Made by a program: the position numbers and the translations under genes
Notes under the pieces: generated by a model
Database searches by the model: none
Told to the model about the DNA's origin: nothing
The model's input: the letters and a program-made list of their open reading frames with translations, nothing else
DNA from: a virus
Direction: 5' to 3' (one strand)
IMG/VR virus record: IMGVR_UViG_3300009052_000034
Coordinates: 1-21,057 of that record
Length of the DNA: 21,057 nucleotides
Part shown: piece after piece, positions 565 through 18,895 of the stretch
Layout of the letters: each line of letters opens with the position of its first letter
Numbering within the stretch: position 1 is the first letter of the stretch

Positions 565-2079
565 ATGGAATTAGAAAATCACATTTTAGCGGTTGTAGAA
601 CCGGCAATACTCCCAACGGAAATCAAGATGGACGCACTGGCTGAAGAATCTGGTGAGAACGTAGATAAACAATCAAAAGAGATTGGTGGGTTTGAACCAT
701 TTATTTTATGTAATGGTGTTCAAGTAACGTCAAATGAAATAGAAAGTGTTGCATTAGAATTAAAAGGGCAAATACCTAGATGTACTGTAAGTTTTGATGA
801 TTCACATGGTGCCTTTAAAGTAGACTCTATGCCAAGAGATGGTGACTTCTTTACAATTCTTTTAAACTCAAAACACCAAGAGACTTTTAAATCAGTCCAC
901 ATGGATTTTGATATTACAGAAATTAAAACTGAAGCAGACAATGCTAATACACCAGGAGGTAGTATGATTACATTGAATGGTATTGCTAAAATACCTAGAT
1001 TATTCGCAGAAGACTGCCAGGTATTAGATTCTGATACTTCTTTAAATCATTTAGAAACTATTGTTAGAGATTTAGAAATAGGTCTTGCTACAAATGTAGA
1101 TTCTACTGATGATGCTCAGCCTAGAATACAAGCTTATGATTCTTATCTTACTTTTATTAAATCAATTGTACAAGACTCATATATTTCTGACGATTCTTTT
1201 GTTAAATTTTATATAGACCAATATTACTATTTAAATTTTATAGATATTAATAAGATCTTTAATTCACCTAGCCCAAAATTAGATGAAGTAATGACAGTAT
1301 TAACTGGATTTGCAGAATCTGAAGGCAAGAAAGCGGGAAATGAAGATGCAACTGATTCTGATAATGTAGAAGTACCTCTATTGTTAACTAACCATAAAGA
1401 CCTTTCAGGTTTAACCTGTTTTATTAATTCTTATGAACTAGTGAATAACTCATCTACAGTTAGTCTTAAGGCAGGGTATGCTAGAACGGCTCAGATATAT
1501 GATAATAACTCTGATTCTGGAGATAGATTTCAAGAATTTACAATTGAGCCTTTAGTAACAGAAGAATTATCTGAACTTGATGAACCATTAAGAGGAAATA
1601 GAAAAGATGAGCGCTATAAAGATCAAGTTAAGTTTAAATACATGGGCAGACAAAACGCCGGTGATGATGGGCTAGGTAATACTCATTCTAATGCTATTTA
1701 CACTAAACTACATGACGCTCAAAATAACATGGAAATAGAAAAGATGAAGTTAATAGTTGATGTAGTTGGCTTTAACCCATCCATATATAAGTTTTGTAAA
1801 ATACCGGTAGTAATGTATCATTATGATGGAGTAAAAATAGAGGCTGAACAAAAAGCAGACCAAAAGAGAGAAGAGGCTGGTTTAACAGAAAGACCTCTAG
1901 GTGCTGGAAAGCCAGATGGTGATCAAAATGACTTGACTCAAATGATGGACAAATTTATTTCAGGCTATTATATAGTAGAGAATATTGATTACTTATACGA
2001 TAAAGAAGAGGCTATTACAACTAAGCTAACTCTAATTAGAAGAGAATGGCCTAGTAGATCTGCTAATTTAGCAGAATAA
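565..2079 (+). CDS. Baseplate hub protein, gp27/gpD-like
   Basis: A 504-aa protein. In T4-like tails the gp27-type hub is a ring joining the tail tube to the spike. Residues about 41-120 (GGFEPFILCNGVQVTSNEIE onward) read as the first tube-like beta domain of hub proteins: a ligand/axis statement followed by alternating strands ending in HMDFDITEIK. Around 395-421 is a second strand-rich stretch (LIVDVVGFNPSIYKFCKIPV), and the end (SGYYIVENIDYLY ... LIRREWP) has the 'Y-I-V-I-Y ... L-RREWP' look of phage hub C-termini. The middle (about 190-270) is rich in Tyr/Asp and unassigned. It is followed by the tube-initiator-like and spike genes, which supports the call. The start ATG at 565 is preceded by TTAATATTAAAGA, A-rich without a strong Shine-Dalgarno. 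A tube-initiator identity is the main alternative. Confidence 0.65.
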   Translation: MELENHILAVVEPAILPTEIKMDALAEESGENVDKQSKEIGGFEPFILCNGVQVTSNEIESVALELKGQIPRCTVSFDDSHGAFKVDSMPRDGDFFTILLNSKHQETFKSVHMDFDITEIKTEADNANTPGGSMITLNGIAKIPRLFAEDCQVLDSDTSLNHLETIVRDLEIGLATNVDSTDDAQPRIQAYDSYLTFIKSIVQDSYISDDSFVKFYIDQYYYLNFIDINKIFNSPSPKLDEVMTVLTGFAESEGKKAGNEDATDSDNVEVPLLLTNHKDLSGLTCFINSYELVNNSSTVSLKAGYARTAQIYDNNSDSGDRFQEFTIEPLVTEELSELDEPLRGNRKDERYKDQVKFKYMGRQNAGDDGLGNTHSNAIYTKLHDAQNNMEIEKMKLIVDVVGFNPSIYKFCKIPVVMYHYDGVKIEAEQKADQKREEAGLTERPLGAGKPDGDQNDLTQMMDKFISGYYIVENIDYLYDKEEAITTKLTLIRREWPSRSANLAE

Positions 2080-2102: not shown

Positions 2103-3650
2103 ATGGCTGAAAAAGATAACAGCAGAAATGCATTTAGAAAAGGAGCGAGAAGCGCTAAGATCCATGAAGATCCTACGTACTTGTCTTTTATGATTTTGTT
2201 TCACGCGAACGATCATTCGAGTGAGGCTCATTCGCCCCTATTAAATGGTGAAGCAGAGAGATATTTAAGGAATGTTGTTAGAACAGACTTGGGTGACATA
2301 TATGCTAATAATTTAGCCACTTTTAATAGAGTATTACTAAAGGTTAACAGAGAATTGCCTTGGTTTTGGCAAGGGCTTAAAGGTGTTGAAAAGGCTATGA
2401 CTTATGGCGATATGAAAGAGCCATGGAGAGGAAATGATAAACCACAACTAGAAATTGAATGTTTAGAAGAGAATGTTGAATTAACAGCAATAGGTCTTAT
2501 GGAATTATACAAGAACTCTTGTTTTGATTTAGATCGATACGTAGAGATTGTTCCTAAAAACTTAAGAGAGTTCTCAATGGATATTTACTTTTCAGAAATA
2601 AGAACTTTTCAAAAAGATACAGATGCTAGAAACTTAGGAATTACAGATAACCCAGATTCTAGAATTAATTCATCAGGATCAGATGCTAAGACTGTAAAAG
2701 ATATTCATCCAGTATTTAATTCAAACCTAGTCGGCATGGGTGCTGATTCTAGGCCTTTCGTGGCATTAAGATTTACACATTGTGAATTTGACATTGATTC
2801 TATTGCAGATTACTTTGCAGATATGAGTAGAAACCCAGAGGCTAAAAAACCCACTCTTAAAATAAAGTGGGGAACTTGTAGACCTCTTGGTGCAAGAATA
2901 GGTCCAAATATGTTTAATGAAAACAGAGACGCTGGACTAGTAACTACAGGGCAGCCTGTAAATGATGCTACTGATCCAAGCCAAATACCATTAAATACAG
3001 TTAGTCCTAATGCTCAACAGAATGTTAGCTCAATGGATTCATTAACTAATGTACATGATGCTTCTGATCCTAGGGCACAATCTGTAACTGAAAGAAAAAG
3101 AATTGGACTTAAAGATCTAGCAAAAGATACAATAGGTAGTATTAAAGATGATATTCAAGATACTGCAGCAGGTTTAGTAGCTGGAGTAACAAATGCTATT
3201 GATAGTTTTAGCCTACAACCAAATGGAATTGGTAATGTACATGGTACACAAATCGGTGGTTTTGCAGGTAATCTATTAGATAGTGCCGTTGGTAATTTAA
3301 AAGGCAAATTATTATTAGATAATGTACATGGTGCTGGTGGATTAGGTAGTATACAAGATGCTATTAATGGCGGTCTAATTAATGCCGTTGGTAATTTAAT
3401 CCAAGGCCAACTTAATAGCGGTGGAAGTGCTGCAAGTGCATTTGCAAGCGGTGGCGGCGGTTCTGGCGTTGGTGATAGAATACATGAATTTGCAATCGAT
3501 AGTACACCAGATGGTAACTTAAACGCTAATGTAAACGATCCAATTGCTCAAAAACAAGCAGGTCCATTAAATGATAATGTACACGGAGGTGTTAATACAG
3601 GAATAGACTCAACACCAGACGGTAACTTAAACAGCAATATACATGAATGA
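2103..3650 (+). CDS. Tail-tube/tube-initiator-like structural protein with repeat-rich C-terminus
   Basis: A 515-aa protein between the hub and spike genes. Residues 1 to about 280 look like a folded tube-type domain: PWFWQGLKGVEKAMTYGD, then LEIECLEENVELTAIGLMEL, then IVPKNLREFSMDIYFSEIRT, then FVALRFTHCEFDIDS. By position and style it may act like T4 gp48/gp54 at the tube-baseplate junction, but I cannot prove homology. From about 300 onward it is low-complexity Gly/Ala/Asn-rich, with NVHD at 316-319, NVHG at 378-381, 407-410 and 492-495, and the nonapeptide DSTPDGNLN at 466-474 and 502-510. It ends in SNIHE. The stop overlaps the next start by 8 nt (3643-3650), so the spike is probably translationally coupled to it. 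The start is fixed by the GATAAATA box just upstream and the absence of earlier in-frame ATGs after the previous stop. Confidence 0.5.
   Translation: MAEKDNSRNAFRKGARSAKIHEDPTYLSFMILFHANDHSSEAHSPLLNGEAERYLRNVVRTDLGDIYANNLATFNRVLLKVNRELPWFWQGLKGVEKAMTYGDMKEPWRGNDKPQLEIECLEENVELTAIGLMELYKNSCFDLDRYVEIVPKNLREFSMDIYFSEIRTFQKDTDARNLGITDNPDSRINSSGSDAKTVKDIHPVFNSNLVGMGADSRPFVALRFTHCEFDIDSIADYFADMSRNPEAKKPTLKIKWGTCRPLGARIGPNMFNENRDAGLVTTGQPVNDATDPSQIPLNTVSPNAQQNVSSMDSLTNVHDASDPRAQSVTERKRIGLKDLAKDTIGSIKDDIQDTAAGLVAGVTNAIDSFSLQPNGIGNVHGTQIGGFAGNLLDSAVGNLKGKLLLDNVHGAGGLGSIQDAINGGLINAVGNLIQGQLNSGGSAASAFASGGGGSGVGDRIHEFAIDSTPDGNLNANVNDPIAQKQAGPLNDNVHGGVNTGIDSTPDGNLNSNIHE
3048..3650 (+). repeat. Dispersed coding repeats (NVHG/D and DSTPDGNLN units)
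   Basis: AATGTACATG occurs in frame at 3048, 3234 and 3321, with a variant AATGTACACG at 3576, each encoding Asn-Val-His plus Gly or Asp. The nonapeptide DSTPDGNLN is encoded at 3498-3524 and 3606-3632 with silent differences between the copies, which suggests selection at the protein level. Related RIHE and NIHE tetrapeptides lie near 3477 and at the very C-terminus. Confidence 0.7.
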
Positions 3651-4359
3651 TAAAGAACTTTTCAAAGATAATATTCGAGAAACACATTGGCTCGGAGAAG
3701 TAGTTATCAATGAAGATCCACTACTACAGGGTAGAGTGCGTGTAAAAGTTTTCGGTAAATTTGATAAATTAACAGATGACGCTATTCCATGGGCAACTCC
3801 TATGAATAGGGATCAGGTTGGTGCGCATGCAGTTCCTAGAGTTGGAGATGTTGTTGCAGTTAGATTTGATAACGGTAACATTTATCACCCAGAATACTGG
3901 TTTCAAGTAGATCAAAACGAAGACTTAAAGGGAGACATCTTAGAGGCATCTGATGCACCGCATGATGTAATTAGTTTAGTCTACGATGCAGAACGTAACG
4001 TAAGAATTTACCACTCACCAGAAGATGGCCTAGTCATTACAAGAGGCGAGGGTAAAAAAGAAAGACCTATCATTCAATTAGACGAAGAAGGCATTATTAA
4101 GATCTCAACTGATAATAAGATCTTTATGGATTGTGGAGATATATTTGTATCTAATACAGGGGAAGGCGGAGCAGATGAAACTGAACCGGCGGTAAGAGGT
4201 CAATCTCTACAAGATTGGTTACAAGCCCTATTAGATGATTACAATGCACATATCCATCCAACAGGAGTTGGACCATCAGGTCCACCAATGCCACCAACAC
4301 CGGCAACTGTTGCAAAATTATCTAGCACACATATTAAGTATCAACAAAAGAATAAATAA
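3643..4359 (+). CDS. Baseplate central spike, gp5/VgrG-type OB-fold, no lysozyme domain
   Basis: A 238-aa protein that should form the trimeric spike under the hub. Residues about 12-90 are the OB-fold: WLGEVVINEDPLLQGRVRV, then IPWATPMN, then VPRVGDVVAVRFDNGNIYHP. Residues about 105-170 are short strands (VRIYHSPEDGLVITRGEGKK, IIKISTDNKIFMDCGDIFVS), consistent with the beginning of a beta-helical needle. The C-terminal part has a short helix (LQDWLQALLDDYNAHIHP) followed by a Pro/Gly-rich GVGPSGPPMPP run of the kind common at the ends of phage baseplate V/spike proteins; His203 and His205 form an HxH. T4 gp5 is far longer (575 aa) because it carries lysozyme plus a long helix; here there is no lysozyme domain. 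The start overlaps the end of the upstream gene by 8 nt. Confidence 0.85.
   Translation: MNDKELFKDNIRETHWLGEVVINEDPLLQGRVRVKVFGKFDKLTDDAIPWATPMNRDQVGAHAVPRVGDVVAVRFDNGNIYHPEYWFQVDQNEDLKGDILEASDAPHDVISLVYDAERNVRIYHSPEDGLVITRGEGKKERPIIQLDEEGIIKISTDNKIFMDCGDIFVSNTGEGGADETEPAVRGQSLQDWLQALLDDYNAHIHPTGVGPSGPPMPPTPATVAKLSSTHIKYQQKNK
4351..4358 (+). promoter_or_regulatory. AATAAATA box, T4 late-promoter-like
   Basis: AATAAATA followed by ACT and ATG, 11 nt from motif start to the ATG at 4362. It overlaps the last codons of the spike gene. It is one mismatch from TATAAATA. Confidence 0.4.
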
Positions 4360-6698: not shown

Positions 6699-7061
6699 TT
6701 ATTTTGCAGTAACTAGCAAAGTTTTTTTAGCCTTGATGTGTTTACAATCTCCTCTAAAGAAATTCATTGCCGGGCAATTACAACCCCATGCTCCATTTGC
6801 CTCAGTAACTTCATAGAATTTACCAGGTTTAGAAGACTCTACTTTCCACGTCTTAGCTTTAACTTTAGCTTTAGTAACTACGGGTGTTGGTTTTGGTTTT
6901 ACTATTTTAGCACTCTTGTCAAATTTGATTTGATCTCTAGTAGTTCCTTTAGGTATTGGATGCCATCCTGGACAGACATAAGATTTATCCATTAGATTTA
7001 CTATCGCGAATACGTCACCGTAACAGTGATCTTGCGGGAATGTATATGTTTTATCTGACAT
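6699..7061 (-). CDS. SWIM zinc-finger protein
   Basis: A 120-aa protein. The C-terminal part carries Cys94-x-Cys96-x9-Cys106-x-His108 (GAWGCNCPAMNFFRGDCKHI), which fits the SWIM zinc-finger pattern CxCx(n)CxH; the preceding strand (KFYEVTEANG) matches the usual beta lead-in. SWIM domains bind DNA or proteins and are found in transposase-linked, SNF2-linked and recombination-linked proteins, but also alone in phages. The N-terminal half is different: DHCYGDVFAIVNLMDKSYVC then PGWHPIPKG, with Cys13, Cys30 and His34 that might form a second metal site, and it is joined by a Lys/Pro/Val linker (about 50-72). The partner is unknown. It is preceded at 2 nt by copy 2 of the 52-bp repeat, so it probably has its own promoter and could be expressed at a different time from the structural genes. 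Confidence 0.8.
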   Translation of the reverse strand: MSDKTYTFPQDHCYGDVFAIVNLMDKSYVCPGWHPIPKGTTRDQIKFDKSAKIVKPKPTPVVTKAKVKAKTWKVESSKPGKFYEVTEANGAWGCNCPAMNFFRGDCKHIKAKKTLLVTAK

Positions 7062-7173: not shown

Positions 7174-7536
7174 ATGAAAACACCTATTATTAAGTACAGT
7201 GATAAATTTTTAAACAGCATCAGCTGGTTTATGAAAGTTGGTGGTATTACTCTTTGGCCGTTTGTCGTTTTAAGAGAACGATATAATGTACCGAATGCTG
7301 ATTATGGTAAGAGAATTGTTAATCACGAATCGATCCACATTAAGCAACAAGAAGAATTATTAGTTATACCATTTTATATTTTGTATATTATTGAGTGGTT
7401 TATTAAGCTATTCTTTTATGGCAAAGATGCATACTATAATATCTCGTTTGAAAGAGAGGCTTATAGCAATGAATATGATTATGAATACCTTGAAAATAGG
7501 AAAAAGTACGCATGGATAAAACGTGTGGTTAAGTAG
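7174..7536 (+). CDS. Small HExxH protein, possible membrane-associated metallopeptidase-like
   Basis: A 120-aa protein. HESIH at residues 51-55 matches the HExxH zinc-metallopeptidase signature, followed at 62-82 by a hydrophobic helix (LLVIPFYILYIIEWFIKLFF) and then SFEREAYSNE (91-100), whose glutamates could supply a third zinc ligand. The N-terminal half has a second moderately hydrophobic segment (GGITLWPFVVL, about 24-34). The C-terminus is Tyr/Lys-rich (ENRKKYAWIKRVVK). The pattern resembles short uncharacterised proteins I associate with Bacteroidota, though I cannot name a family. Substrate and activity are unknown; cell-envelope or lysis-related proteolysis is speculation. It has its own upstream GATAAATA box and is followed by the S1-like gene after 37 nt. 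Confidence 0.7.
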   Translation: MKTPIIKYSDKFLNSISWFMKVGGITLWPFVVLRERYNVPNADYGKRIVNHESIHIKQQEELLVIPFYILYIIEWFIKLFFYGKDAYYNISFEREAYSNEYDYEYLENRKKYAWIKRVVK

Positions 7537-7573: not shown

Positions 7574-8866
7574 ATGTCAGACAAAAAAAGACGAAGAATT
7601 AATTCTTCAGCCCCAGAGGCAAACACAGTAGAACTAGTTCAAACAGTTCAAAACCCAAACAACCAGGAAGAAGTAAAAATAGAAACAAAGATCGAAGATG
7701 ACGGTCCGGACTATTTACTACCAGATGGAGAATTCGATTGGAACGCGTACGAGGCAACCTGCCCAACAAGAACGCGAAAAGCAAATCCACATATTAAAAC
7801 CAAAAACGGAGATAAAGTATTCTCTCGTGAGTCTTATGCTCAAGAGTTATATGATCTCATGGAAGGTACTAATGCATGTGACATCATACCTCAATTATTT
7901 ATAGGTGAGATTCATGAAGGTATCATTTATGCAGTGGACCAAGAATATATCACGGTAGATATTAAATATAGAGAGTTAGTCTATATTAAAGCTAATAAGG
8001 AATCAGATGAGGTTAGGCAAATGCTCCCAGGGCAAGAAACTGCAGTTTTAATTACAGAAACTAAAGGTACATTAACTGGTACTATTACTGGTGGTGTAAA
8101 ACATAAAACATTCATGGATCTTAGAGCTGCGATCGACGAAGGCAATACTGCTTGGATCGGTACAGTAAATAACATGATTGAAAATGGTGGTTATATTGTA
8201 AAAGTACAAGGCGTAGATTGCTTTATGCCAGGATCACTTGCAGGTATTAATAAATTATCAGACTTTAGTTCTATCGTTGGAGAAGAATTATATGTTGTTC
8301 CAGTAAGTTTCTCACCAGATAGAGGTACGTTAGTGGTTTCACATAGAAAATATTTACAAGCTCTAATACCGAGTCAAATTAATGAATTAAAAGAAACTCT
8401 TGATGAACCTAAATCCGGTTTAGTTACAGGTACTGCAAAATATGGAGTATTTGTTGAATTCAATAAATGTTTAACTGGTATGATTCATACAAATGAACTT
8501 GATGAAGCAACATCTGCAAGATTTAAATCTAGAGACATTAAGCCAGGGGAGCCAATTGAATTCTTTGTAAAAGATATTATTACTAATAATAAAATTACAT
8601 TAACTCAAAAGGAAACTACTACAGCTAATCCATGGATCAATATATCAACTAGGTATCAAATACCTTCGGTTATTAAGGCTAAAATTAAGACTAAAAAAGA
8701 ATATGGAGTCTTTGTAAATATTGAAGATGGTGTAACTGGGTTACTGCATGTAAGTGAATTACCTGGTGATACATTAGATAACTATATGGTTGGTGATGAG
8801 ATCGAAGTACAAATTACTAGGATTGATGAGGACTCCATGAAGGTGTTTCTTAAACTACCCCAATAA
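7574..8866 (+). CDS. Phage-encoded S1-domain protein, ribosomal protein S1-like
   Basis: A 430-aa protein with four S1 (OB-fold, RNA-binding) domains at about 108-175, 190-258, 279-347 and 361-428. The clearest signatures are in the last two: GLVTGTAKYGVFVEFNKCLT then GMIHTNEL, and IKTKKEYGVFVNIEDGVTGL then LHVSEL. Domain 2 has GYIVKVQGVDCFMPGSLAGI, which is typical of S1 domain 2-3 in ribosomal protein S1. The first about 100 residues are a charged linker with FDWNAYE (54-60), recalling the FDWDAFE-type N-terminus I associate with Bacteroidota S1. Cellular S1 usually has six domains and about 550-600 aa, so this is shortened. Likely role: binding mRNA and/or the ribosome to favour phage translation, or binding a phage polymerase complex as S1 does in Qbeta. 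The start ATG at 7574 follows AAATAAAAAATAA with no Shine-Dalgarno. Confidence 0.88.
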   Translation: MSDKKRRRINSSAPEANTVELVQTVQNPNNQEEVKIETKIEDDGPDYLLPDGEFDWNAYEATCPTRTRKANPHIKTKNGDKVFSRESYAQELYDLMEGTNACDIIPQLFIGEIHEGIIYAVDQEYITVDIKYRELVYIKANKESDEVRQMLPGQETAVLITETKGTLTGTITGGVKHKTFMDLRAAIDEGNTAWIGTVNNMIENGGYIVKVQGVDCFMPGSLAGINKLSDFSSIVGEELYVVPVSFSPDRGTLVVSHRKYLQALIPSQINELKETLDEPKSGLVTGTAKYGVFVEFNKCLTGMIHTNELDEATSARFKSRDIKPGEPIEFFVKDIITNNKITLTQKETTTANPWINISTRYQIPSVIKAKIKTKKEYGVFVNIEDGVTGLLHVSELPGDTLDNYMVGDEIEVQITRIDEDSMKVFLKLPQ

Positions 8867-8919
8867 CTATTGCCACGGAGTTTGATATATATTGAAAAGT
8901 AATATCATACTCTTAATTA

Positions 8920-10233
8920 ATGCAAAAGTTAAAAAGTAATTCAACAAGGCACGAAGTACTGAATGCCAGTCAAATGGGAATCGAATTTGAGTTCTATTCT
9001 AACCTAGAACTTGAAGAGACGCAAAAGTCTGTATCTAAACTATTAAATAGAAAGATACAACTAGAAGAAAAAGCCCATTCTGACTTTGTACCATCTGCAG
9101 ATGTGTTTAAGATGGAACCAGATATGTCTGGTGGCGCAGGACTAATTGAACTTGTGACTGGCCCGATGCCTTATAGGAGTGCCAGATTAGTTATTATTCA
9201 AATGTTAGGGTGGATTCGTGAAAACGGGTACACATCTGATCGAGCATCGATCCACCTTAATATGTCCTTTAATCCTGATTATTTAGAAAAACCAAATATG
9301 ATACAACACATGGACGTGTTGAAATTTATACTTGAGTTTGATGAATCTAGGGTATATAAGTATTTCCCTGGCAGAGAGAATTCTACTTATGCAAAATCTA
9401 TTAAATGGATAATGCCTAAACATGAAGCCTTTTATTACAACGCAGATTTAATTAATAAGGATAACTTTACATTTGCCAACACTAAATATTATGGTATTAA
9501 CTTTGAAAAGGCTCAAAGTAATTATTTAGAATTTAGATATATTGGTGGTAAAGATTATGAAAAGAAACAAGAGGATATTCTAACGTTAGCCGATAGATTT
9601 ATATTAGCAATATTTAGATCTTGTAGAGATCCTAGGTTTACAGATGCTAATAAAATAGAGTTACAACGTATTTTAAGAAAGAACGAACCCCTAATGGCGA
9701 TGTTAAAAGACTATACCGCCGTAAATAAGCATTGGCCTAAGATAGATATATTAGTAGATTTACAATCAGATCCTACGGTAATTAACGTACAATGGGATAG
9801 ATTTAAACATAAAGTATTAGATTTACTATCAAACGGTACAATGGAAGAGGGAATTATTAACTACGATTCAGATTATTCTACAGTTCAAGTTAAAGATGGC
9901 AGGTTTAAAACTGCATATTTATTAGATGGTTTTGAATTTATAGACTGTGAACTATCAGGTAATATTGAAAACTCAGCAATATATGGAGGGGATATAAAAG
10001 GAGCACAAGTCCTAAGATCTCAAATATATAAAGGATGTGCAGTTATAGATTCTAAAATAGAATCTTGTTTTGTGCATGGTAGTGTAGAAGTTAAAAACTG
10101 TTTTGTTTTTGGAAGAGATGGTATCTTTAAAGGCAGAATGGAAGGAGGCATCTTTAGAGAAGGCGGTATGGGACCTCATGCCAGAATCTCAGATGAAACC
10201 GAAGTTGTGGTAAGTAAAAAAATAAAATCATAA
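8920..10233 (+). CDS. Amidoligase-like (glutamine-synthetase-fold) protein with C-terminal beta-solenoid
   Basis: A 437-aa protein. Residues about 15-240 match the layout of the amidoligase_2/carboxylate-amine ligase group: MGIEFEF (19-25), PDMSGGAGLIELVTGP (67-82), a helical segment, SIHLNMSF (110-117, HxN), and NYLEFRYIGG (201-210), where the ExR-type end resembles the 'EFR' motif of that fold. Such enzymes join a carboxylate to an amine using ATP; some are thought to make peptide or isopeptide modifications. Residues about 325-415 form a regular strand-turn pattern (FEFIDCELSGNIENSAIYGG, AVIDSKIESCFVHGSVEVKN), suggesting a right-handed beta-solenoid, which could bind a virion or cell-surface partner. 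I have not seen this fusion named. It starts 53 nt after the S1-like gene; the next gene begins 1 nt after its stop, so it is in the same transcription unit as the structural genes. Confidence 0.6.
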   Translation: MQKLKSNSTRHEVLNASQMGIEFEFYSNLELEETQKSVSKLLNRKIQLEEKAHSDFVPSADVFKMEPDMSGGAGLIELVTGPMPYRSARLVIIQMLGWIRENGYTSDRASIHLNMSFNPDYLEKPNMIQHMDVLKFILEFDESRVYKYFPGRENSTYAKSIKWIMPKHEAFYYNADLINKDNFTFANTKYYGINFEKAQSNYLEFRYIGGKDYEKKQEDILTLADRFILAIFRSCRDPRFTDANKIELQRILRKNEPLMAMLKDYTAVNKHWPKIDILVDLQSDPTVINVQWDRFKHKVLDLLSNGTMEEGIINYDSDYSTVQVKDGRFKTAYLLDGFEFIDCELSGNIENSAIYGGDIKGAQVLRSQIYKGCAVIDSKIESCFVHGSVEVKNCFVFGRDGIFKGRMEGGIFREGGMGPHARISDETEVVVSKKIKS

Positions 10234-10234
10234 A

Positions 10235-11077
10235 ATGAGTGAAATTAGAAGCGGCAATGAAAATAACTTAAACGTTGGAAGAAGTTTCGGCGATGGTTGT
10301 TTAAACGCATTTTTACAAGAGCTTGGTGATGAGCTAACTGGAGCATGTATGGTCCCAGTAAATTTACCACAGAGAGAAATAGTGAATATTATTAAAAGAG
10401 CTAAGAAATGGTTCTATAAACAATATGAAGATTCTGTACTAGAAAATTATTATCATATACCAAATGCTGTGTTTAGCAGTGAATATTTTAAAAAGAATAG
10501 AACATTAAATTTACCTGGAGCAAGTGAAGATGGATCTGGGTCTGTATTTTCAGTATTTGGAGTACACGATATTGCATCTGGTTTTGGTTCAACCGGTGGT
10601 GGATTAGATGTTAGATTTCAAAGCGGTGGAGACTTTGCAGTAGAGAAGATGTTATTCAGAGGAATGTACGACGGATCTGGAGCAGCAGAATCTGCAGAAG
10701 AATTAGAATATTATGTACTAAATCAGTCTTTAGCAGATATGGCTAGACAGATTTTAGAAAACCCAATTTCTTTTCAATACTCTAGACTGACTGGAGAGCT
10801 AAAGATAATGGGAGATACTCCGAAGGGAGATCTGATACTTGATGTGTACGAAACGATTCCGGATTGTGCACTATTTGACGACGAAATCTTTTTTAGATAT
10901 TGTTCTGCTAAGATTAAGCAATCACTAGGCGCTAAGCTTGGTATTTTTAAGTTTGCATTACCTGGTAATGTGGAATTCGACTACGACGCAATAAAAGACA
11001 TGGGAGACACCGAATTAGAGTCAATTATTGAGGAGATAAAGGGAGACGAAGGAGTGGACTGGATGTTTCACTCATAA
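10235..11077 (+). CDS. Probable virion structural protein (280 aa), neck, tail-completion or baseplate type
   Basis: The N-terminus has helical segments (LNAFLQELGDELTGA, EIVNIIKRAKKWFYKQYEDS), then a Gly/Ser-rich middle (GASEDGSGSVFSVFGVHDIA, about 95-115). The C-terminal third reads LILDVYETIPDCALFDDEIF, then FRYCSAKIKQSLGAKLGIFK, then LPGNVEFDYDAIKDMGDTEL. A 'YxxAxIKxxLGxxLxxFxxxLPGxVxxN/D' pattern like this recurs in structural proteins of T4-like phages, in my recollection sometimes annotated as neck or tail proteins; I cannot name the exact family. Its place immediately before gp25 favours a baseplate or tail role. It is 1 nt after the stop of the amidoligase-like gene. Confidence 0.55.
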   Translation: MSEIRSGNENNLNVGRSFGDGCLNAFLQELGDELTGACMVPVNLPQREIVNIIKRAKKWFYKQYEDSVLENYYHIPNAVFSSEYFKKNRTLNLPGASEDGSGSVFSVFGVHDIASGFGSTGGGLDVRFQSGGDFAVEKMLFRGMYDGSGAAESAEELEYYVLNQSLADMARQILENPISFQYSRLTGELKIMGDTPKGDLILDVYETIPDCALFDDEIFFRYCSAKIKQSLGAKLGIFKFALPGNVEFDYDAIKDMGDTELESIIEEIKGDEGVDWMFHS

Positions 11078-11092
11078 AAAGTAGAATACATA

Positions 11093-11100
11093 TATAAATG
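11093..11100 (+). promoter_or_regulatory. TATAAATG box overlapping the gp25 start
   Basis: TATAAATG matches TATAAATA in the first seven bases, but its last three bases are the ATG of the gp25 gene. A T4-type late promoter here would start transcription inside the gene, so a translation-initiation or chance explanation is more likely than for the other boxes. Confidence 0.2.
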
Positions 11101-11454
11101 GATTTTTATATAAAATACATAGGAGACCCTAATTATCAAACTGGCATTGTTCAAAACGTAAGTGAAGTTGAACAGTTACTAGCTCAGATAGAAACAGTTC
11201 TTTTCACAAGAAAGAGAGATGTTTTAGGTGCTCCAGGATTTGGTTGTAACTTAGAAGATATTGTATATAGTTTAGGTCAAAATGAATTTCAAATTAAAAA
11301 TGAAATACAGGGGCAATTAGCTAACCACGTACCTCTTGCTAGTAAGTATAGAGTTAGTGTAAGCGTTAAGTTTATGCGAGGTGAAGTTAGGGATGTTGCG
11401 TTCATTGATATTACTGTTAACAACGAGTATATAATCAAAGTAAATTTAAGATAA
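11098..11454 (+). CDS. 25: Baseplate wedge protein, gp25/GPW family
   Basis: A 118-aa protein; T4 gp25 is 132 aa. gp25 is the small wedge subunit that initiates sheath assembly. Residues about 22-115 follow the family layout: a helix (VSEVEQLLAQIETVLFTRKR), the conserved 'R-x-x-GxPxFG' turn (KRDVLGAPGFGCNLEDIVYS), a second helix (FQIKNEIQGQLANHVPL), then paired strands (YRVSVSVKFMRGEVRDVAFI and DITVNNEYIIKVNL). It is followed 7 nt later by gp6, the usual partner. The start at 11098 gives MDFYIKYIG and fits the family length. Confidence 0.9.
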   Translation: MDFYIKYIGDPNYQTGIVQNVSEVEQLLAQIETVLFTRKRDVLGAPGFGCNLEDIVYSLGQNEFQIKNEIQGQLANHVPLASKYRVSVSVKFMRGEVRDVAFIDITVNNEYIIKVNLR

Positions 11455-11457
11455 ATA
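11450..11457 (+). promoter_or_regulatory. GATAAATA box, T4 late-promoter-like
   Basis: GATAAATA followed by ACTA and the ATG at 11462, 12 nt from motif start to ATG. It overlaps the stop codon of gp25 (11452-11454). Confidence 0.4.
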
Positions 11458-11461
11458 ACTA

Positions 11462-13291
11462 ATGGCAGAATTAAAATTTTTAAGCACACTAAAAATATCG
11501 GCTAATCAAATCAAGACCGATGCTCGAACATATATCTCGAGGGTATATAAACGTGCAAACACTTTATTTAGTGAAGCGTCGCCATTTGCTCAGATTATCT
11601 CTGTTATGGCAGAGCTCGGTGAATTAATAATGTTCTATATAGAAGACTCTTTAGTAGAACAAAACATATACACTGCTCAGCAGCCAGAATCTATATATGG
11701 TTTATCAAGGCTAACAGGACATGATGCGACTAGAGGCTTTGCAGCAACCGGTGAGATAGAGTTTAGATGGAAAGTTGGAGCAGATCTTAGTAAGGTTGCA
11801 GGTACTGGATTAAATATTGATGCCAGATCAGAATTACAATGTGAATTAAATGGATTAACTTATACTTTACTATCTTCACAAGAAAAATTCAGATTAGAAA
11901 AGGCTAATAAGTATAACATAAAATGTGCAATCATTCAAGGTAAATTTGAAAAGCAAACCTTTACTGGAACTGGAGAATCAATGCAATCATATAATATACA
12001 AACAAGCTCTTTAACAGATCATTCTAAAGTTAGTGTTTCTATAAACGGTGAAAAATGGACGAAGCATGATTCTATGTACGATCTATTAAATAACGAAAAA
12101 GCATATATTCTTAAAACAGGTATTTCCGGTGGCCTTGATGTTTATTTTGGAACTGGTAATTTTGGAGCACTGCCTCCAGCTGGATCTGCAATAGAAATTG
12201 AATACATTAAACATGCTGGATTTCAAGGTAATTTAGATGATGCACAAGACATCACATTTAAATGGGATGCAGAAGGATCGGATTCTAACGGTGATGAGTT
12301 TGATTTAAATGAATATTTAGAAATGACTGTAACATCATCTCCTAAAATGGGAGCTGATAAAGAGTCAACTGATTTTACAAAGTTAATGGCCCCTTTGGCG
12401 TCAAAATCATACGTTCTAGCGACACCTGATAACTATGAGTATTTCCTATCAAGATATGGAATGTTCTCGTATGTGGATGCTTACAACACGACTGCGGATC
12501 AATATTTAGATGATGATAACGTAATTTATATTTTTGCTATCCCCGATGCTAGAAGAAAGTTATTAGCAGATCAAGATTATTTCTCAATACCAATGAATGA
12601 AATGTTTTTTGATCAGAATGAATATGACAAAATGTCACAAGTAATTCAGGATAGTGGACAACAAATGGTTACGACTGAAGTAGTATTTGTAAAACCACAG
12701 GTTAGAAAATATAGTATGGATATTAATATTAGATATTTTGAAGGATATACTAAACAAGAAATATTCGCTGATGTTAGAGTAGCAGTAAGTGATTATATGC
12801 TTAATATTACAAGAAGAGATAAATTGCCTAAATCAGATATAGTGTATATCCTAGAATCGATTGATGGTATTGATGCAGTAAATGTGAGATTTATATCTGA
12901 AACAGAAGAGACTGCAAGAAGATTAGGCTATTATGAGTCTAAGACTGTTACTGTTGTACCACAAGAACCTGTAGTTCTAGAAGAGATAGGTAATGGTAAA
13001 CAAAAATATATTTTCTTTAAACAAATAGAAGAGGTTAAGACCGTAACGGTTGATGCGACTACTGCAATTCCGTATACTGTAGCTGGATTAGATGAGTGGG
13101 GTGATATTATTATGGAAAAGGAAGAAGTTGCAGTCTTTAGAGGCGGATGGCAAGACCGAGATGGTGATCAAATCGTTGACGAGGCTTTAATGAATGCAGA
13201 AGCTGCACTTTCAGTTAATTTTGACGCAGTAGCTGTACCTAGAACTATTTACACTAGAGTACAGGCTGGAAATAGAAAATCCTTAAAATAA
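11462..13291 (+). CDS. 6: Baseplate wedge protein, gp6-type (baseplate J-like)
   Basis: A 609-aa protein; T4 gp6 is 660 aa. gp6 dimers link neighbouring wedges in the baseplate ring. The N-terminal signature is clear: SPFAQIISVMAELGELIMFY, then IEDSLVEQNIYTAQQPESIY, then GLSRLTGHDATRGFAATGEI (about residues 40-100), matching 'aq.i..l...l.yYIeDs..e.ni..A..p.Si..lsrl.GH.ptR'. The middle (about 180-290) is beta-rich, followed by a baseplate-J-like core with FVKPQVRKYSMDINIRYFEG and ISETEETARRLGYYES. The last about 80 residues (KTVTVDATTAIPYTVAGLDE) are Thr/Val-rich. Its stop overlaps the next start by one base (TAATG at 13289-13293), so the 89-aa gene is translationally coupled. Confidence 0.9.
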   Translation: MAELKFLSTLKISANQIKTDARTYISRVYKRANTLFSEASPFAQIISVMAELGELIMFYIEDSLVEQNIYTAQQPESIYGLSRLTGHDATRGFAATGEIEFRWKVGADLSKVAGTGLNIDARSELQCELNGLTYTLLSSQEKFRLEKANKYNIKCAIIQGKFEKQTFTGTGESMQSYNIQTSSLTDHSKVSVSINGEKWTKHDSMYDLLNNEKAYILKTGISGGLDVYFGTGNFGALPPAGSAIEIEYIKHAGFQGNLDDAQDITFKWDAEGSDSNGDEFDLNEYLEMTVTSSPKMGADKESTDFTKLMAPLASKSYVLATPDNYEYFLSRYGMFSYVDAYNTTADQYLDDDNVIYIFAIPDARRKLLADQDYFSIPMNEMFFDQNEYDKMSQVIQDSGQQMVTTEVVFVKPQVRKYSMDINIRYFEGYTKQEIFADVRVAVSDYMLNITRRDKLPKSDIVYILESIDGIDAVNVRFISETEETARRLGYYESKTVTVVPQEPVVLEEIGNGKQKYIFFKQIEEVKTVTVDATTAIPYTVAGLDEWGDIIMEKEEVAVFRGGWQDRDGDQIVDEALMNAEAALSVNFDAVAVPRTIYTRVQAGNRKSLK

Positions 13292-13560
13292 TGTTATTTA
13301 AAGATCTATTAGTATACAAGCGTAAAAGGCTATATAAAATAGCTAAGCATAGAAAGGATGAAAATCTTAATGTCAAATATGACTATAAGAAGCATGGTTT
13401 ATTAAAGAATCAAGTATCGCCGCATATCATGAGAAATCAAACAATGAGAGAATTTCTTTTATTTGTTAATGATTATATGGTTGCGTTGTTAGATCAGGTT
13501 AGATACTTAAAGAATTTTGGTAATTTTACGGTAGAAAAAGACGAAGAAAGAACTAGATAA
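13291..13560 (+). CDS. Small basic protein between gp6 and gp7-like genes
   Basis: An 89-aa, Lys/Arg-rich protein (LVYKRKRLYKIAKHRKDENL at the N-terminus, ending KDEERTR) with helical segments (MREFLLFVNDYMVALLDQVR). No signal peptide, no clear membrane helix, no family recognised. It overlaps the gp6 stop by one base (TAATG) and the next gene starts 1 nt after its stop, so it is embedded in the wedge operon and probably made in fixed proportion to gp6. A small wedge subunit or assembly chaperone is an inference from position. It is not a shadow ORF: it is the only long frame in the gap and it closes the operon spacing exactly. Confidence 0.7.
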   Translation: MLFKDLLVYKRKRLYKIAKHRKDENLNVKYDYKKHGLLKNQVSPHIMRNQTMREFLLFVNDYMVALLDQVRYLKNFGNFTVEKDEERTR

Positions 13561-13561
13561 T

Positions 13562-16363
13562 ATGTGGAATAATTTAAGATTTTTTAATGGTACTATTTCA
13601 GAGCTACAGTTAGTTCAAGACGAAAATAATGTCTGGGCAGGAACTGTATACTTACCTGAAGTATCTGCATCGTTATATGAGACAGTCAATCTTTTTATTT
13701 TAGAGGAATGTATTCAAAATAGCGATTTAGTTGTTAATAAACCTTTGTCGCCAGATAATATAATTAATACCTTTAAATTTTCATGGGAATTAACGAGACC
13801 TGATGAATCTGAAGATGTTATTATGTATGGCATGAGAATGAACAATGGTTCAGCGTTTGTTAAAGAAATTAAAACTCAAGAATTAGAATTAGCACCTAAT
13901 AGTAATATTGAATCCCAGGATGCTGATTTCTTTAAAACTATAACCGATCATGATAATGTTGCTTTACAAGTAAATATCGCAATTGCATCTGAAAACCCAG
14001 GTATTCATAAGAGGACTTTATTAGTTACTGCAGGGGATGTTGTGGTTGCTAGAATTAAATTTTATGGTGAAGTAGAAACAGAAGATGATAGATTTAAAGT
14101 ATTGCTTGCTAACTTAGGAGCATCTTTAGAAGCTGAAGACTTTATGATATTTAAGTCTCATGATATTTCTGAAATGCACCCTGATTATCAACTATTAAAC
14201 CAAAAGAGAAAGGAACTATTATTAGAACTTAATAATATTAAACCTTTTGTTGGTACATATAAAGCAATCTTAAATGCGATTGATTTCTTTGGCTATGATA
14301 AAATTACACTTAAAGAATATTGGATTAACATAGATAACGCATCGAAAACTTTCGGTAAGTTACATGCAATTCCAGTACCTAACTCATCTGTTAGGGGTGA
14401 AATGACTAGAAAGAGACTAAGATTTAAAGTACCTTCTAAAACACAAAAGAAAACTAGTAGGTTCTCATTAGTTTACAGACTAAACGAACCGAATGGAACT
14501 TTCGATCAGTGGGATTTTGCTAATGTTGATGAAGTCTTTGATTTCACACCAGAAGAAGTCCTAATCAAATTATATGGTTTAAAGAATAGATTACAAAGAG
14601 ATTTTTTACCCCTCGAATCTAAAATCGTAGACATTACAGGAGAAGGCGACTATTTCACTCAGAAGAATATGAACATGTGGAAGATTCAAAATCCAATTGG
14701 ATTCTTCTCAGAGGGACATAGGGTTAAATTTGATGTATGGCCAAGAGATAGAGATCTTTTTATTGAAGATACTTCAGTTGTTTTAAAATCTACATTAGAT
14801 CAAAACGATGCTGCTAGTAATTACGATGAATTCTTAACGTTAGGAATTGGTAATGAGTCTACTATATCAAATAAGAAAAGATCTGAAATAAAAAACATCT
14901 TTGAAGATTTTTATGGATCATACCACGATAGAACTTTAGAATCGTATAACCAAAACTTTTCAAATACTAATATACCGATAGGCTGTCCTGTTATTCTAGA
15001 TTCTACTGAATCTTGGGATGATATTTGGGACGAGGCTACTTTTGTATGGGACGATGCAGTTGATGCTAATCAAAACTTAAAAGTAACTTGGAATAATTGG
15101 TATAAAAGATGGGTATATGAAATTGAATGGATTATTGATGGGCCAAATGATTTTCATCAAGAGTACAGAGGTCCGGTTGATTATATAGATGATAATGGAC
15201 TTGCAGCAGATGACTATAAAAGATTACCGATTACTTTACCATACGTTGGAAACTACACGGTAGAGATGCGAATGTACGATCTATTTGGTCACATGTCATT
15301 CTATAAAAAATCAGATCTTTTTGAAGTTAAAGCAAAGGAATTAGAGTTATACGGAGTCTATAAATGGTTAGAAACTGATGCGAAGGGCAATGCAATTCCA
15401 TGGAATTCTAAAACATTAGACTGGGACCTATCAGGTGGCTACTGGGATATGCCACAAGACAATACCCAAAAGGTAGAAGATACTATTGCAACTTTATACC
15501 AAACCTTAGACAGGGCAAACTATTTACATAATGATACAATAGACCAGGGTTTAAGATTTTCAATGGTAAGAAGACATAAAGATCTATTCTCAGATACAGG
15601 TTATTCTGAAACTACAGGCCCTTATCAATGGGACGAATGCAGATTTAGATGGAAAGATACTGAACATAACTGGTGGGACAATTTAAGAGTTGGTCCGGAT
15701 TTAACAGCATCTTTTAAAATAGACTGGATTGAAAACGGAGATATACTTACAATTACTCACAAAAACCCTACAACAAACGTAGTTAGAACAGGAACACATG
15801 TAATCATGTCTCCGACACCAGCTGGCGTAAATGATACAGATGGTTGGAAATTAATAGCGAATGAATTAGAGGCATCGATAGATCCTGTAATTTCAAAGTT
15901 TAATTACAATCCTGTATTTAAAGATATAGATTCTGATAATGATATAGATTCATTAGATCAGTTCTACTATATTTTATGTACTGGGCAAGAATATTCTAAA
16001 AACTATGATTTTGAAACAGTAGCAATAGATACTGATTCAAATATTTCTGCGGTAAGTGGCGAGGTGCATGTAGTCCACTATAATCCGACATGGGATAACT
16101 TAAAAGTATTTAAAGACTATGCCGTGGTCGAAAGATCTACGCATTTGACTATATCAACTGACATTTCTAAGTTTCCTGGTGCTAGAAAACCAAAATGGAC
16201 TATCACCAATATAACTAACCCAGAAATTAATGATATATACTATAATAATATGTGGCTTACTTACATTTTTCAAGAACCGGGAGATTACTCGATTCAACTG
16301 GAAGCAGAAGACACGTATGGAAATAAGAACGTTGTAAAACGCAACATGTTAAAAGTAAAATAA
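13562..16363 (+). CDS. Large baseplate wedge protein, gp7-like by position, with PKD-like modules
   Basis: A 933-aa protein; T4 gp7 is 1032 aa and follows gp6, as here. Residues about 1-200 are beta-rich (NNVWAGTVYLPEVSASLYET). At about 207-255 is a helical motif (LLNQKRKELLLELNNIKPFV, then GTYKAILNAIDFFGYDKITL) that recurs in wedge proteins of T4-like phages. Two immunoglobulin/PKD-like stretches are visible: about 511-590 (WVYEIEWIIDGPNDFHQEYR and YVGNYTVEMRMYDLFGHMSF) and the last 64 residues (KPKWTITNITNPE ... EPGDYSIQLEAEDTYGNKN). Trp is frequent (WDDIWDEATFVWDDAV at about 480-495). The gp7 assignment rests on length and order more than on motif identity; a phage-specific tail protein with adhesive domains is the alternative. 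Confidence 0.55.
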   Translation: MWNNLRFFNGTISELQLVQDENNVWAGTVYLPEVSASLYETVNLFILEECIQNSDLVVNKPLSPDNIINTFKFSWELTRPDESEDVIMYGMRMNNGSAFVKEIKTQELELAPNSNIESQDADFFKTITDHDNVALQVNIAIASENPGIHKRTLLVTAGDVVVARIKFYGEVETEDDRFKVLLANLGASLEAEDFMIFKSHDISEMHPDYQLLNQKRKELLLELNNIKPFVGTYKAILNAIDFFGYDKITLKEYWINIDNASKTFGKLHAIPVPNSSVRGEMTRKRLRFKVPSKTQKKTSRFSLVYRLNEPNGTFDQWDFANVDEVFDFTPEEVLIKLYGLKNRLQRDFLPLESKIVDITGEGDYFTQKNMNMWKIQNPIGFFSEGHRVKFDVWPRDRDLFIEDTSVVLKSTLDQNDAASNYDEFLTLGIGNESTISNKKRSEIKNIFEDFYGSYHDRTLESYNQNFSNTNIPIGCPVILDSTESWDDIWDEATFVWDDAVDANQNLKVTWNNWYKRWVYEIEWIIDGPNDFHQEYRGPVDYIDDNGLAADDYKRLPITLPYVGNYTVEMRMYDLFGHMSFYKKSDLFEVKAKELELYGVYKWLETDAKGNAIPWNSKTLDWDLSGGYWDMPQDNTQKVEDTIATLYQTLDRANYLHNDTIDQGLRFSMVRRHKDLFSDTGYSETTGPYQWDECRFRWKDTEHNWWDNLRVGPDLTASFKIDWIENGDILTITHKNPTTNVVRTGTHVIMSPTPAGVNDTDGWKLIANELEASIDPVISKFNYNPVFKDIDSDNDIDSLDQFYYILCTGQEYSKNYDFETVAIDTDSNISAVSGEVHVVHYNPTWDNLKVFKDYAVVERSTHLTISTDISKFPGARKPKWTITNITNPEINDIYYNNMWLTYIFQEPGDYSIQLEAEDTYGNKNVVKRNMLKVK

Positions 16364-16957: not shown

Positions 16958-18895
16958 ATGGCAACTCCGTTAGTTAGAATACCACAGCCGCAAGGTGGCA
17001 CAATGTATGCTTTTGCTTCATCAGCAAGAGATATTACCAGAGCGTTTAACAGTGCTGATATTAATTTTGAGTTTAGTAAATATGCTTTACTAGACTTACC
17101 TGATTTTACACAATCTGTTAATAATGAAAATTCAATTAATTTTGGATTAAATCTGAAGCAACCTTCTGGTCAGCCTTATGTGGCTGGCATGCCGAATGTG
17201 GATTTCGCACAAACATTTCAAAACTATGCATTAAATTTAGAAGAGCTTCTTTTAAATGATGATGATTATGACCCGATTATTTTAGCATCTGATGCTGAAA
17301 AGATCTTTTTTAAGTGGTTATCAGCATTAGGTGCAATAGATTTTAGACCGTCGGATTCTAATGAATCTTCGACTGGTGCTTATGCGGAGAATGACAACGC
17401 AATTTTAGGGGGATCAAATTATGATAGAGTGGTAAAGTATTTAGGTAGCATCGACGCAGAGAATGACGTTGCATACCAGGGAAATACATATCATGAAGTT
17501 TATATTAACGTACCAACATCGGTAGGTTATACTCCTCAAGTCTTATTTAAGCCTACTGACTATAATACAACAGCAACTAAATTATTTCCTAGCGATGTAA
17601 ATGCTGTAAATATAGAGGGTAGAGAGGGACAAACACACCCAGATCCTAATATTGACTTATTGCCAGTTGTAGATCAATGGACTGCTAATTCAGGTCCATT
17701 TTATGATGTGCAAACAAATGCTACAAATTCTGTACAAATAGATTGGGACACTGCTTCTTATGAGCAGATTCAAAATAATCCTGACGTTAAATCGTTATTG
17801 GATTATGCCAAAACTGGACAACAGTTCAGATTTAATGCCGTTTTAGTATACTATGATTTATATAGCTCTTCTGTACCTGCTAATAGATCTACAAATTTAT
17901 ATGGTATCTTAATATTAGATGATATTACAGATTCTCCAGGACCTGGTTCAAAGATACATGAACAAATTAAATTTAAGCCTAACGAAGTAACAGGCCTAAA
18001 TGGTAATGCATATTCTTTAAAGTTAAATCTTAAATTCAATTCATCTCTTGATAACGTAGGTGTTGAGACTAGTGTGAATGATTTCACTACATTCTCTATG
18101 GATTTATTCATGGACACTACTACAGCGCTTGAGAACGCGACTGATCTACTATTACAAGCTAATAATAGATATGGTGCACTTGCAGATAGATTTACTAATT
18201 TAGAAAATGTAATTTTAGGAACAGCTCAAGCTGCTCAACTAGAAACAAGAATAAAAGAATTAGAAGATGACTTTACTGCGTCTTCATTACAGTTACAAGA
18301 TTCAAATGCGCTATTAAGTTTAATTAATAATGCACATGAAAAAATTAATCAACTAATAGACGGTACAATCCCAGTAGAATTACAATATAACACAGATGTA
18401 ATATTCTCAGGTAAAGGTACTACAGTTGATAAATCAATCGCTGGTAAAATTAAAATTAATAACGAGGTTGAAGGTTATGTAGTATCTGATTTATACAAAT
18501 GGGATATTGCTTCTAAAATTACAACAGGAGTTTTAAATTCATCAAGCTTATTCGATAATTCACAGGCTAATCAATACGGAGTATGGGCTAAATTAAACCT
18601 TTACACTAATAGATTAAGTCTGAATAACATATTAAATAACGAGTCACTAAATAGTAGCCTAGATATATACATTGATGATTCCACTAACGGGTGGAAGAAA
18701 GGTCAAGTATTTAAAATAGCGATAGATACTATTGATGTAAATGGTAACAACATAAAGGTTTTAACTAACAAATCTGGAGGTTGGCAAAATATCGCAGACA
18801 TCGACCCATCACAGTTAATAACGACTAAACCTTACATTGAATTGGTTTGTATAGATCCAATAAACTATGTATTTGAAGTAGATATTTTAAGATAA
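16958..18895 (+). CDS. Large virion protein of the baseplate periphery, with a coiled-coil segment
   Basis: A 645-aa protein. It starts with PLVRIPQPQGGTMYAFASSA, then a mainly beta N-terminal half (SINFGLNLKQPSGQPYVAGM, FNAVLVYYDLYSSSVPANRS). Residues about 390-475 are heptad-like and helical (ATDLLLQANNRYGALADRFT, LETRIKELEDDFTASSLQLQ, LLSLINNAHEKINQLIDG), probably a trimeric coiled coil. The C-terminal about 160 residues are again beta-rich (WKKGQVFKIAIDTIDVNGNN). I do not recognise a family; T4 gp8 or gp10 are candidates only by gene order. The 23-nt gap before the ATG (16935-16957) holds no A/GATAAATA box, and the ATG is preceded by ACTGTAG. The next gene begins 1 nt after its stop. Confidence 0.6.
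   Translation: MATPLVRIPQPQGGTMYAFASSARDITRAFNSADINFEFSKYALLDLPDFTQSVNNENSINFGLNLKQPSGQPYVAGMPNVDFAQTFQNYALNLEELLLNDDDYDPIILASDAEKIFFKWLSALGAIDFRPSDSNESSTGAYAENDNAILGGSNYDRVVKYLGSIDAENDVAYQGNTYHEVYINVPTSVGYTPQVLFKPTDYNTTATKLFPSDVNAVNIEGREGQTHPDPNIDLLPVVDQWTANSGPFYDVQTNATNSVQIDWDTASYEQIQNNPDVKSLLDYAKTGQQFRFNAVLVYYDLYSSSVPANRSTNLYGILILDDITDSPGPGSKIHEQIKFKPNEVTGLNGNAYSLKLNLKFNSSLDNVGVETSVNDFTTFSMDLFMDTTTALENATDLLLQANNRYGALADRFTNLENVILGTAQAAQLETRIKELEDDFTASSLQLQDSNALLSLINNAHEKINQLIDGTIPVELQYNTDVIFSGKGTTVDKSIAGKIKINNEVEGYVVSDLYKWDIASKITTGVLNSSSLFDNSQANQYGVWAKLNLYTNRLSLNNILNNESLNSSLDIYIDDSTNGWKKGQVFKIAIDTIDVNGNNIKVLTNKSGGWQNIADIDPSQLITTKPYIELVCIDPINYVFEVDILR

Follow-up and report, generated by a model that had tools for sequence, protein, structure and literature searches.

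Amidoligases that share the fold of glutamine synthetase (GS) are annotated in many phages, and the roles given for them in print are, as far as the available texts extend, proposals only. For phage genes of the Amidoligase_2 family, two studies propose a role at the cell envelope (PMC5498523, PMC10580990). In phages of the phiEco32/LUZ24 type, an Amidoligase_2 enzyme forms part of a peptidoglycan cassette, which is compact in phage tf, where the genes for a COOH-NH2 ligase, the amidoligase, a GATase, an ATP-grasp protein, and AIG2 all lie within positions 7593-13587. A further phage amidoligase, AUZ94978.1 (500 amino acids), is encoded by Agrobacterium phage Atu_ph07, for which 131 virion proteins are reported in PMC6102473.

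Here, we describe an amidoligase gene found in a 21-kb virus record (hereafter the window, meaning the whole stretch of 21,057 nucleotides that was analyzed). The kind of enzyme is already known; its new features are a C-terminal solenoid and a place near virion genes. In the open-licence literature, within the portions of text available, we found no description of an amidoligase-solenoid fusion or of its location near virion genes, which is not proof of absence.

Results

Overall architecture

The gene lies on the plus strand, begins with an ATG, and encodes a protein of 437 amino acids, in which no signal peptide was seen by eye. An AlphaFold model built on a 61-sequence alignment (pLDDT 91.0, pTM 0.83) divides the protein into an N-terminal catalytic domain, a helical linker, and a C-terminal solenoid (Table 1). 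An initial annotation, made from the sequence alone, had read the gene as an amidoligase fused to a beta-solenoid, and both halves of that description are borne out, the first by a GS-like fold in structure comparisons and the second by profile and models. The motifs GIEFEF, ELVTGP, HLN, and LEFR likewise occur in the order that had been claimed for them.

Table 1. Positions of the amidoligase gene, its parts, and its neighbors in the window.
Feature	Position	Strand	Evidence
"Hub" gene (working label), upstream	565-2079	+	Matches a PHROG without assigned function
"Tube" gene (working label), upstream	2103-3650	+	No PHROG match
gp5-like OB protein, upstream	3643-4359	+	Family matches
S1-domain protein, 53 nt 5' of amidoligase gene	7574-8866	+	Pfam S1, 1.6e-20, 3 stretches
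Whole gene: amidoligase domain, helical linker, and solenoid, 437 aa	8920-10233	+	ORF, AlphaFold model
GS-fold amidoligase domain, residues ~18-236	8971-9627	+	Pfam PF12224; AF2 pLDDT 91; Z 11.7 to glutamine synthetase 8fbp_B
G-x-E-F-E-F motif, residues 20-25	8977-8994	+	E22, E24 invariant, 124/124 alignment rows
E-L-V-T-G-P motif, residues 77-82	9148-9165	+	E77, T80 invariant, 124-row alignment
H-x-N motif (HLN), residues 112-114	9253-9261	+	H in 122/124 rows, N in 123/124
K-Y-Y-G-I-N ... L-E-F-R block, residues 189-206 (LEFR = 203-206)	9484-9537	+	K189, Y190, G192, N194, E204, R206 invariant
Helical linker, residues ~237-306	9628-9837	+	AlphaFold model
Pentapeptide-repeat-like beta-solenoid, residues ~307-415	9838-10164	+	Profile, two models, structure comparison
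Neck / head-tail adaptor protein, 1 nt 3' of amidoligase gene	10235-11077	+	phrog_211 head-tail adaptor, 6.8e-10; "neck protein" of Tenacibaculum phage PTm1
gp25-like (start 11098) and gp6-like (start 11462) baseplate wedge genes	11098-13291	+	Pfam/PHROG-type matches

Fold and family of the catalytic domain

Sequence support for membership of Amidoligase_2 is marginal: the Pfam model (PF12224) covers residues 18-130 with an E-value of 1.4e-4 and 22.2 bits, 0.2 bits above the curated cut-off of 22. The model stands at the edge of the solenoid-fused group, since it reached E ≤ 0.1 in 19 of the 61 aligned members and was above cut-off in none of 13 large records that carry the gene (0/13). NCBIfam gave no match for the window protein, and a search of PDB sequences with this protein alone returned nothing useful. 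Some distant members matched the HalA and PipB2 models of NCBIfam, but with scores well short of the cut-off, and these matches were put down to shared repeats.

When the model was compared with the PDB by Foldseek, ranks 1 to 10 were taken by chains of a single glutamine synthetase entry (8fbp; E 1.1e-3 to 3.1e-3, probability 0.98-1.00), at low TM-scores of 0.26-0.30, and the further high-probability matches among those listed were mostly glutamine synthetases. VIA-align, used as a second comparison on the same candidates, superposed model residues 9-239 on 8fbp_B over 181 residues (Z 11.7, rmsd 3.3). In BFVD, the best match was a full-length uncultured phage protein of 439 amino acids (TM 0.87, 21% identity), and 22 named amidoligases stood among the best 50 matches listed. 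Foldseek against both PDB and BFVD, together with VIA-align, hence recovered the GS-like barrel on which the initial annotation depended.

Glutamine synthetase and the window protein share the fold of the catalytic domain but are only 8-15% identical across the structural alignments, and hhalign against E. coli GlnA, a weak test with a single sequence, gave no alignment over this domain. Glutamine synthetase has an N-terminal beta-grasp domain, which is absent from the element list of the window model. The likeness to Amidoligase_2, a phage and bacterial family of GS-like COOH-NH2 ligases, extends to the fold, the motif order, and the H, E, and R residues. The window gene differs in adding a C-terminal solenoid and in sitting among virion genes, and the large carrier records searched mostly lack the GATase and COOH-NH2 ligase partners. 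Judged by its modeled fold and its motifs, the window enzyme is a GS-like amidoligase.

The Atu_ph07 protein AUZ94978.1 carries a homologous amidoligase domain that aligns firmly by hhalign (prob 97.9; profile E 9e-21), including the R...KY..N...EFR block; a plain profile search with default filters reported no match for it. The profile match spans positions 28-256 of 450, so this protein has no matching solenoid, and it differs further by a long insert near its N-terminus, seen by eye. Its gene is one gene away from the portal gene, on the strand opposite to both of its neighbors. The alignment to the phage tf amidoligase is weak (prob 4.6, E 0.0088) and that to the CW02 enzyme very weak (prob 0.3), but both still keep KY..N and EFR in register.

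Conservation of catalytic residues

Conservation was counted over 124 alignment rows, which represent 123 distinct proteins because the window protein is counted twice. Three homologues were left out: Atu_ph07 (L082); L182, which ends at a contig end; and L079, whose frame is split and whose shortened frame lies 181 nt from its neck gene. This last homologue (8001-9138 of contig IMGVR_UViG_3300046167_000307) is spread over two frames, either because the gene is disrupted or because of an error in sequencing.

In addition to the invariant motif residues of Table 1, D68, K135, R152, Y157, Y207, G209, N314, and R413 never changed in any row. Exceptions at other conserved positions were few, with H112 replaced by Q in two rows, N114 by S in one, K159 by R in three, and H53 by D in one, and motif conservation reaches members that are 31-39% identical to the window protein. 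A loss of the acidic and His/Arg residues among homologues, named at the outset as a result that would speak against an amidoligase, was not seen across the 123 distinct proteins, in which these residues are invariant or nearly so. Because of this invariance, the window enzyme is likely to be catalytically active. By analogy with glutamine synthetase, the E-x-E, E, H, and E-F-R positions are presumed to bind metal and ATP; since profile mapping onto E. coli GlnA gave no alignment, the roles of single residues are read from motif order.

Median dN/dS was 0.053 for the catalytic region, 0.112 for the linker, and 0.079 for the solenoid (185-190 of 200 sampled pairs, 85-97% identity), values that are approximate because synonymous sites have diverged strongly (median dS 0.5-0.85). 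All three parts are under purifying selection, strongest in the catalytic region, where the ratio is lowest.

These data also bear on whether the protein could be a structural or assembly component of the virion that has kept the fold without catalysis. The neck and baseplate genes close by would fit such a role, as would the loss of His112 in two of the 124 rows, but the motif residues are otherwise invariant even in the members at 31-39% identity, and neither the linker nor the solenoid has as low a dN/dS as the catalytic region. We consider a non-catalytic protein quite improbable. That the gene is a spurious ORF or the domain call false, as a Pfam score barely at threshold might suggest, is refuted by at least 547 related stretches in viral contigs, by dN/dS well below 1, and by a confident fold, and this chance reading is given negligible weight.

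C-terminal solenoid

The C-terminal part, when folded alone, was predicted with a pLDDT of 93.3. The strand-turn repeats that had been noted from the sequence are real and all-beta in both models, but they extend over about 109 residues (307-415), not the roughly 90 given before. In structure comparisons, autotransporter-type beta-helices scored highest (Z 10.6 and 9.8), no pentapeptide-repeat protein exceeded Z 9.7, and in a profile search of PDB sequences the pentapeptide-repeat proteins led (best E 2.3e-4). Foldseek with the solenoid placed luminal domains of neurotoxin receptors first (E 6e-4 and 8e-4), which were taken as beta-helix look-alikes, and MAP kinase kinase 7 and other weak profile matches in the PDB were judged to be chance.

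The Pfam Pentapeptide_4 model reached E ≤ 0.1 in 34 of 61 members, with the matches listed for five members lying below the cut-off, and no Pfam pentapeptide family matched the window protein itself. A five-residue hydrophobic period in the window protein is suggestive (p 0.06, 5000 shuffles), with period 7 outscoring period 5; among the 61 aligned members, 23 show the five-residue period at p ≤ 0.01. By profile, the window solenoid resembles pentapeptide-repeat proteins such as MfpA, Qnr, AlbG, and HetL; its modeled fold is likewise similar to their right-handed quadrilateral beta-helix, but to autotransporter beta-helices just as much. It differs from the pentapeptide-repeat proteins in being short, in having no Pfam pentapeptide match, and in being joined to an enzyme. 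Most simply, the modeled solenoid would be a protein-binding or dimerization module.

Genomic neighborhood

The amidoligase gene had initially been placed next to baseplate genes, with a structural gene following after 1 nt. The spacing is exact, the next gene being structural and starting at 10235. This immediate neighbor is, however, a neck (head-tail adaptor) gene, and the gp25- and gp6-like wedge genes come after it. The arrangement is constant among close homologues: the neck gene is next within 7 nt in all 73 distinct near relatives (>40.5% identity), and the S1 gene lies upstream in 72 of the 73, the remaining one being cut off. Viewed from the gp6 side, the enzyme is present in all 56 of the gp6-bearing loci whose upstream sequence extends for at least 4.5 kb; the other 24 of the 80 loci have too little upstream sequence to judge, and the loci are not independent. 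The "hub" and "tube" genes recur in 6/6 phages compared, and one "hub" relative gives a match to a tape-measure family. A scan for promoters and terminators stayed at the level of chance, with 26 promoter-like sites where 24.2 were expected and 4 terminator-like sites where 2.7 were.

Several other features of the window were observed in passing. Relatives of the S1 protein also occur in LR756500, LR745206, and Lak-A1 and were not found in PTm1, pT24, or PAU. Between the gp5-like and S1 genes, a small protein with a HESIH motif (7174-7536, plus strand) matches eCIS_core (E 0.028) and peptidase M56 (E 0.054) weakly and has relatives in LR756500 and Lak-A1; a short protein in a small minus-strand stretch (6699-7061, minus strand) has a SWIM-type zinc finger just below the curated cut-off. 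The tail genes are preceded by a low-complexity ORF rich in Gly, Ser, and Asn (19-555, plus strand) that has no Pfam match, and the C-terminus of the "tube" product (2103-3650, plus strand) repeats a TPDGNLN / NVHG-like element, as seen by eye.

Distribution

Outside viral contigs and phage records, one relative was found in 84,980 prokaryotic species genomes by a pattern scan that rests on two short peptides and can miss relatives; it comes from a metagenome-assembled genome, in which its contig is 5.9 kb long. Some of the distant relatives are carried by phage records of 462-735 kb; among huge phages, five genomes above 634 kb are predicted to infect Bacteroidetes (PMC7162821). In a profile search, all 13 large records examined (126-735 kb, some closely related to each other) had a single full-length copy of the enzyme, with short, weak extra matches in two.

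Gene order in the large genomes is scrambled. In LR745206, the enzyme (108 kb) is close to gp5, "tube," and "hub" (114-119 kb) but far from the neck gene (459 kb) and gp6 (550 kb). We examined 25 distant representatives, defined as relatives below 70% identity. A gp5, neck, gp25, or gp6 relative lies within 10 kb of the enzyme in 14 of the 25, against a background in which 8% (LR756500) or 14% (LR745206) of genome positions qualify. With eight presumed virion genes as markers, four of which (the hub, tube, 13562, and 16958 genes) are working labels without a firm family name, the count rises to 20 of 25, against 11% and 23% of positions in these two whole genomes. Because the 25 representatives are related, these figures are not clean probabilities. 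A marker is on the opposite strand in 9/25, and in 5/25 there is no marker within 10 kb of fetched sequence, two of these having a 3' flank shorter than 7 kb and one a 5' flank shorter than 2 kb. At 21 distant loci (L115-L162 type), the nearest upstream opposite-strand gene encodes a 129-amino-acid protein with no family assigned and no PHROG match, whose cluster is found in 36/55.

The enzyme profile was not found in Lak-A1, Lak-B6, Lak-C1, Tenacibaculum PTm1 and pT24, Chryseobacterium MA9V-2, Sphingomonas PAU, Flavobacterium MaF61, or Vibrio 207E48.1, all nine of which share neck and/or wedge genes with the window; the profile did detect Atu_ph07 in the Lak-A1 run, besides the 13 carriers above. 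Gene by gene, Lak-A1, PTm1, pT24, and PAU contain relatives of "hub," "tube," gp5, neck, gp25, and gp6. As these nine phages have common neck or wedge genes without the enzyme, a tail can evidently be made without it, and it is a lineage-specific addition. A co-occurrence search for a substrate showed 20 of 85 genes to occur in both of two carriers and to be undetected in four non-carriers; the amidoligase gene is one of the 20, among which no convincing partner or substrate gene was seen.

It could be argued from this distribution that the enzyme targets a host protein or small molecule, in takeover or resistance, and that closeness to virion genes reflects only timing or inheritance. Its absence from nine tail relatives and the opposite-strand markers would agree with such a target, but closeness outlasts large rearrangements, with 14 of the 25 distant representatives retaining one of the four firmly named markers nearby. 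On balance, a host target of this sort seems somewhat unlikely.

Comparison with the peptidoglycan cassette

Apart from the Amidoligase_2 enzyme, the three members of the phiEco32/LUZ24-type cassette that were searched for are mostly missing from the 13 large carrier records: GATase_6 was found in 1/13 and COOH-NH2_lig in 0/13, while gamma-glutamylcyclotransferase (GGACT, PF06094), another cassette partner, is present in 4/13. As controls, tf and CW02 match COOH-NH2_lig and GGACT, and GATase_6 was detected in 14/14 cellular genomes. Separately, a GH19-like lysis enzyme, recognized by eye, is encoded at 17114-17713 of LR756500 and 89309-90112 of LR745206; the two copies are 65% identical.

These observations concern the possibility that the enzyme modifies the cell envelope, where a peptidoglycan precursor with an uncommon amide linkage would block superinfection, as proposed for phiEco32/LUZ24-type phages. 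This is a role already put forward in print for such genes, and the GGACT genes could be counted in its favor, as could the GH19-like enzyme, which was not found in the four non-carriers and occurs in nine fetched loci. The classical cassette is compact, yet the partners searched for are mostly absent here, which weakens a cell-wall function, and the gene lies near virion genes and encodes no signal peptide recognizable by eye. We therefore regard an envelope substrate as unlikely.

Discussion

The window enzyme, of the GS-like amidoligase superfamily, would be an amide (peptide) ligase that depends on ATP and metal and is probably competent for catalysis. We suggest that its solenoid recruits a partner protein and that the enzyme, encoded directly before the neck gene in the clade of the window, may act in the cytoplasm during late assembly, where its substrate for amide bond formation would be a phage protein or, alternatively, a host protein. 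We tentatively favor this reading of a protein-modifying ligase, in which we infer activity, timing of expression, the role of the solenoid, and the protein nature of the substrate. A more specific version, in which a dedicated ATP-dependent ligase is aimed by its solenoid at a neck or tail protein and places isopeptide or added-amino-acid links on it in assembly, is possible, if doubtful.

The question of the substrate is testable, since one clade retains the gene immediately ahead of the neck gene and records of up to 735 kb still have it near virion genes. If the favored reading is correct, the enzyme would add an enzymatic protein-modification step to the assembly of the tail or neck of tailed phages.
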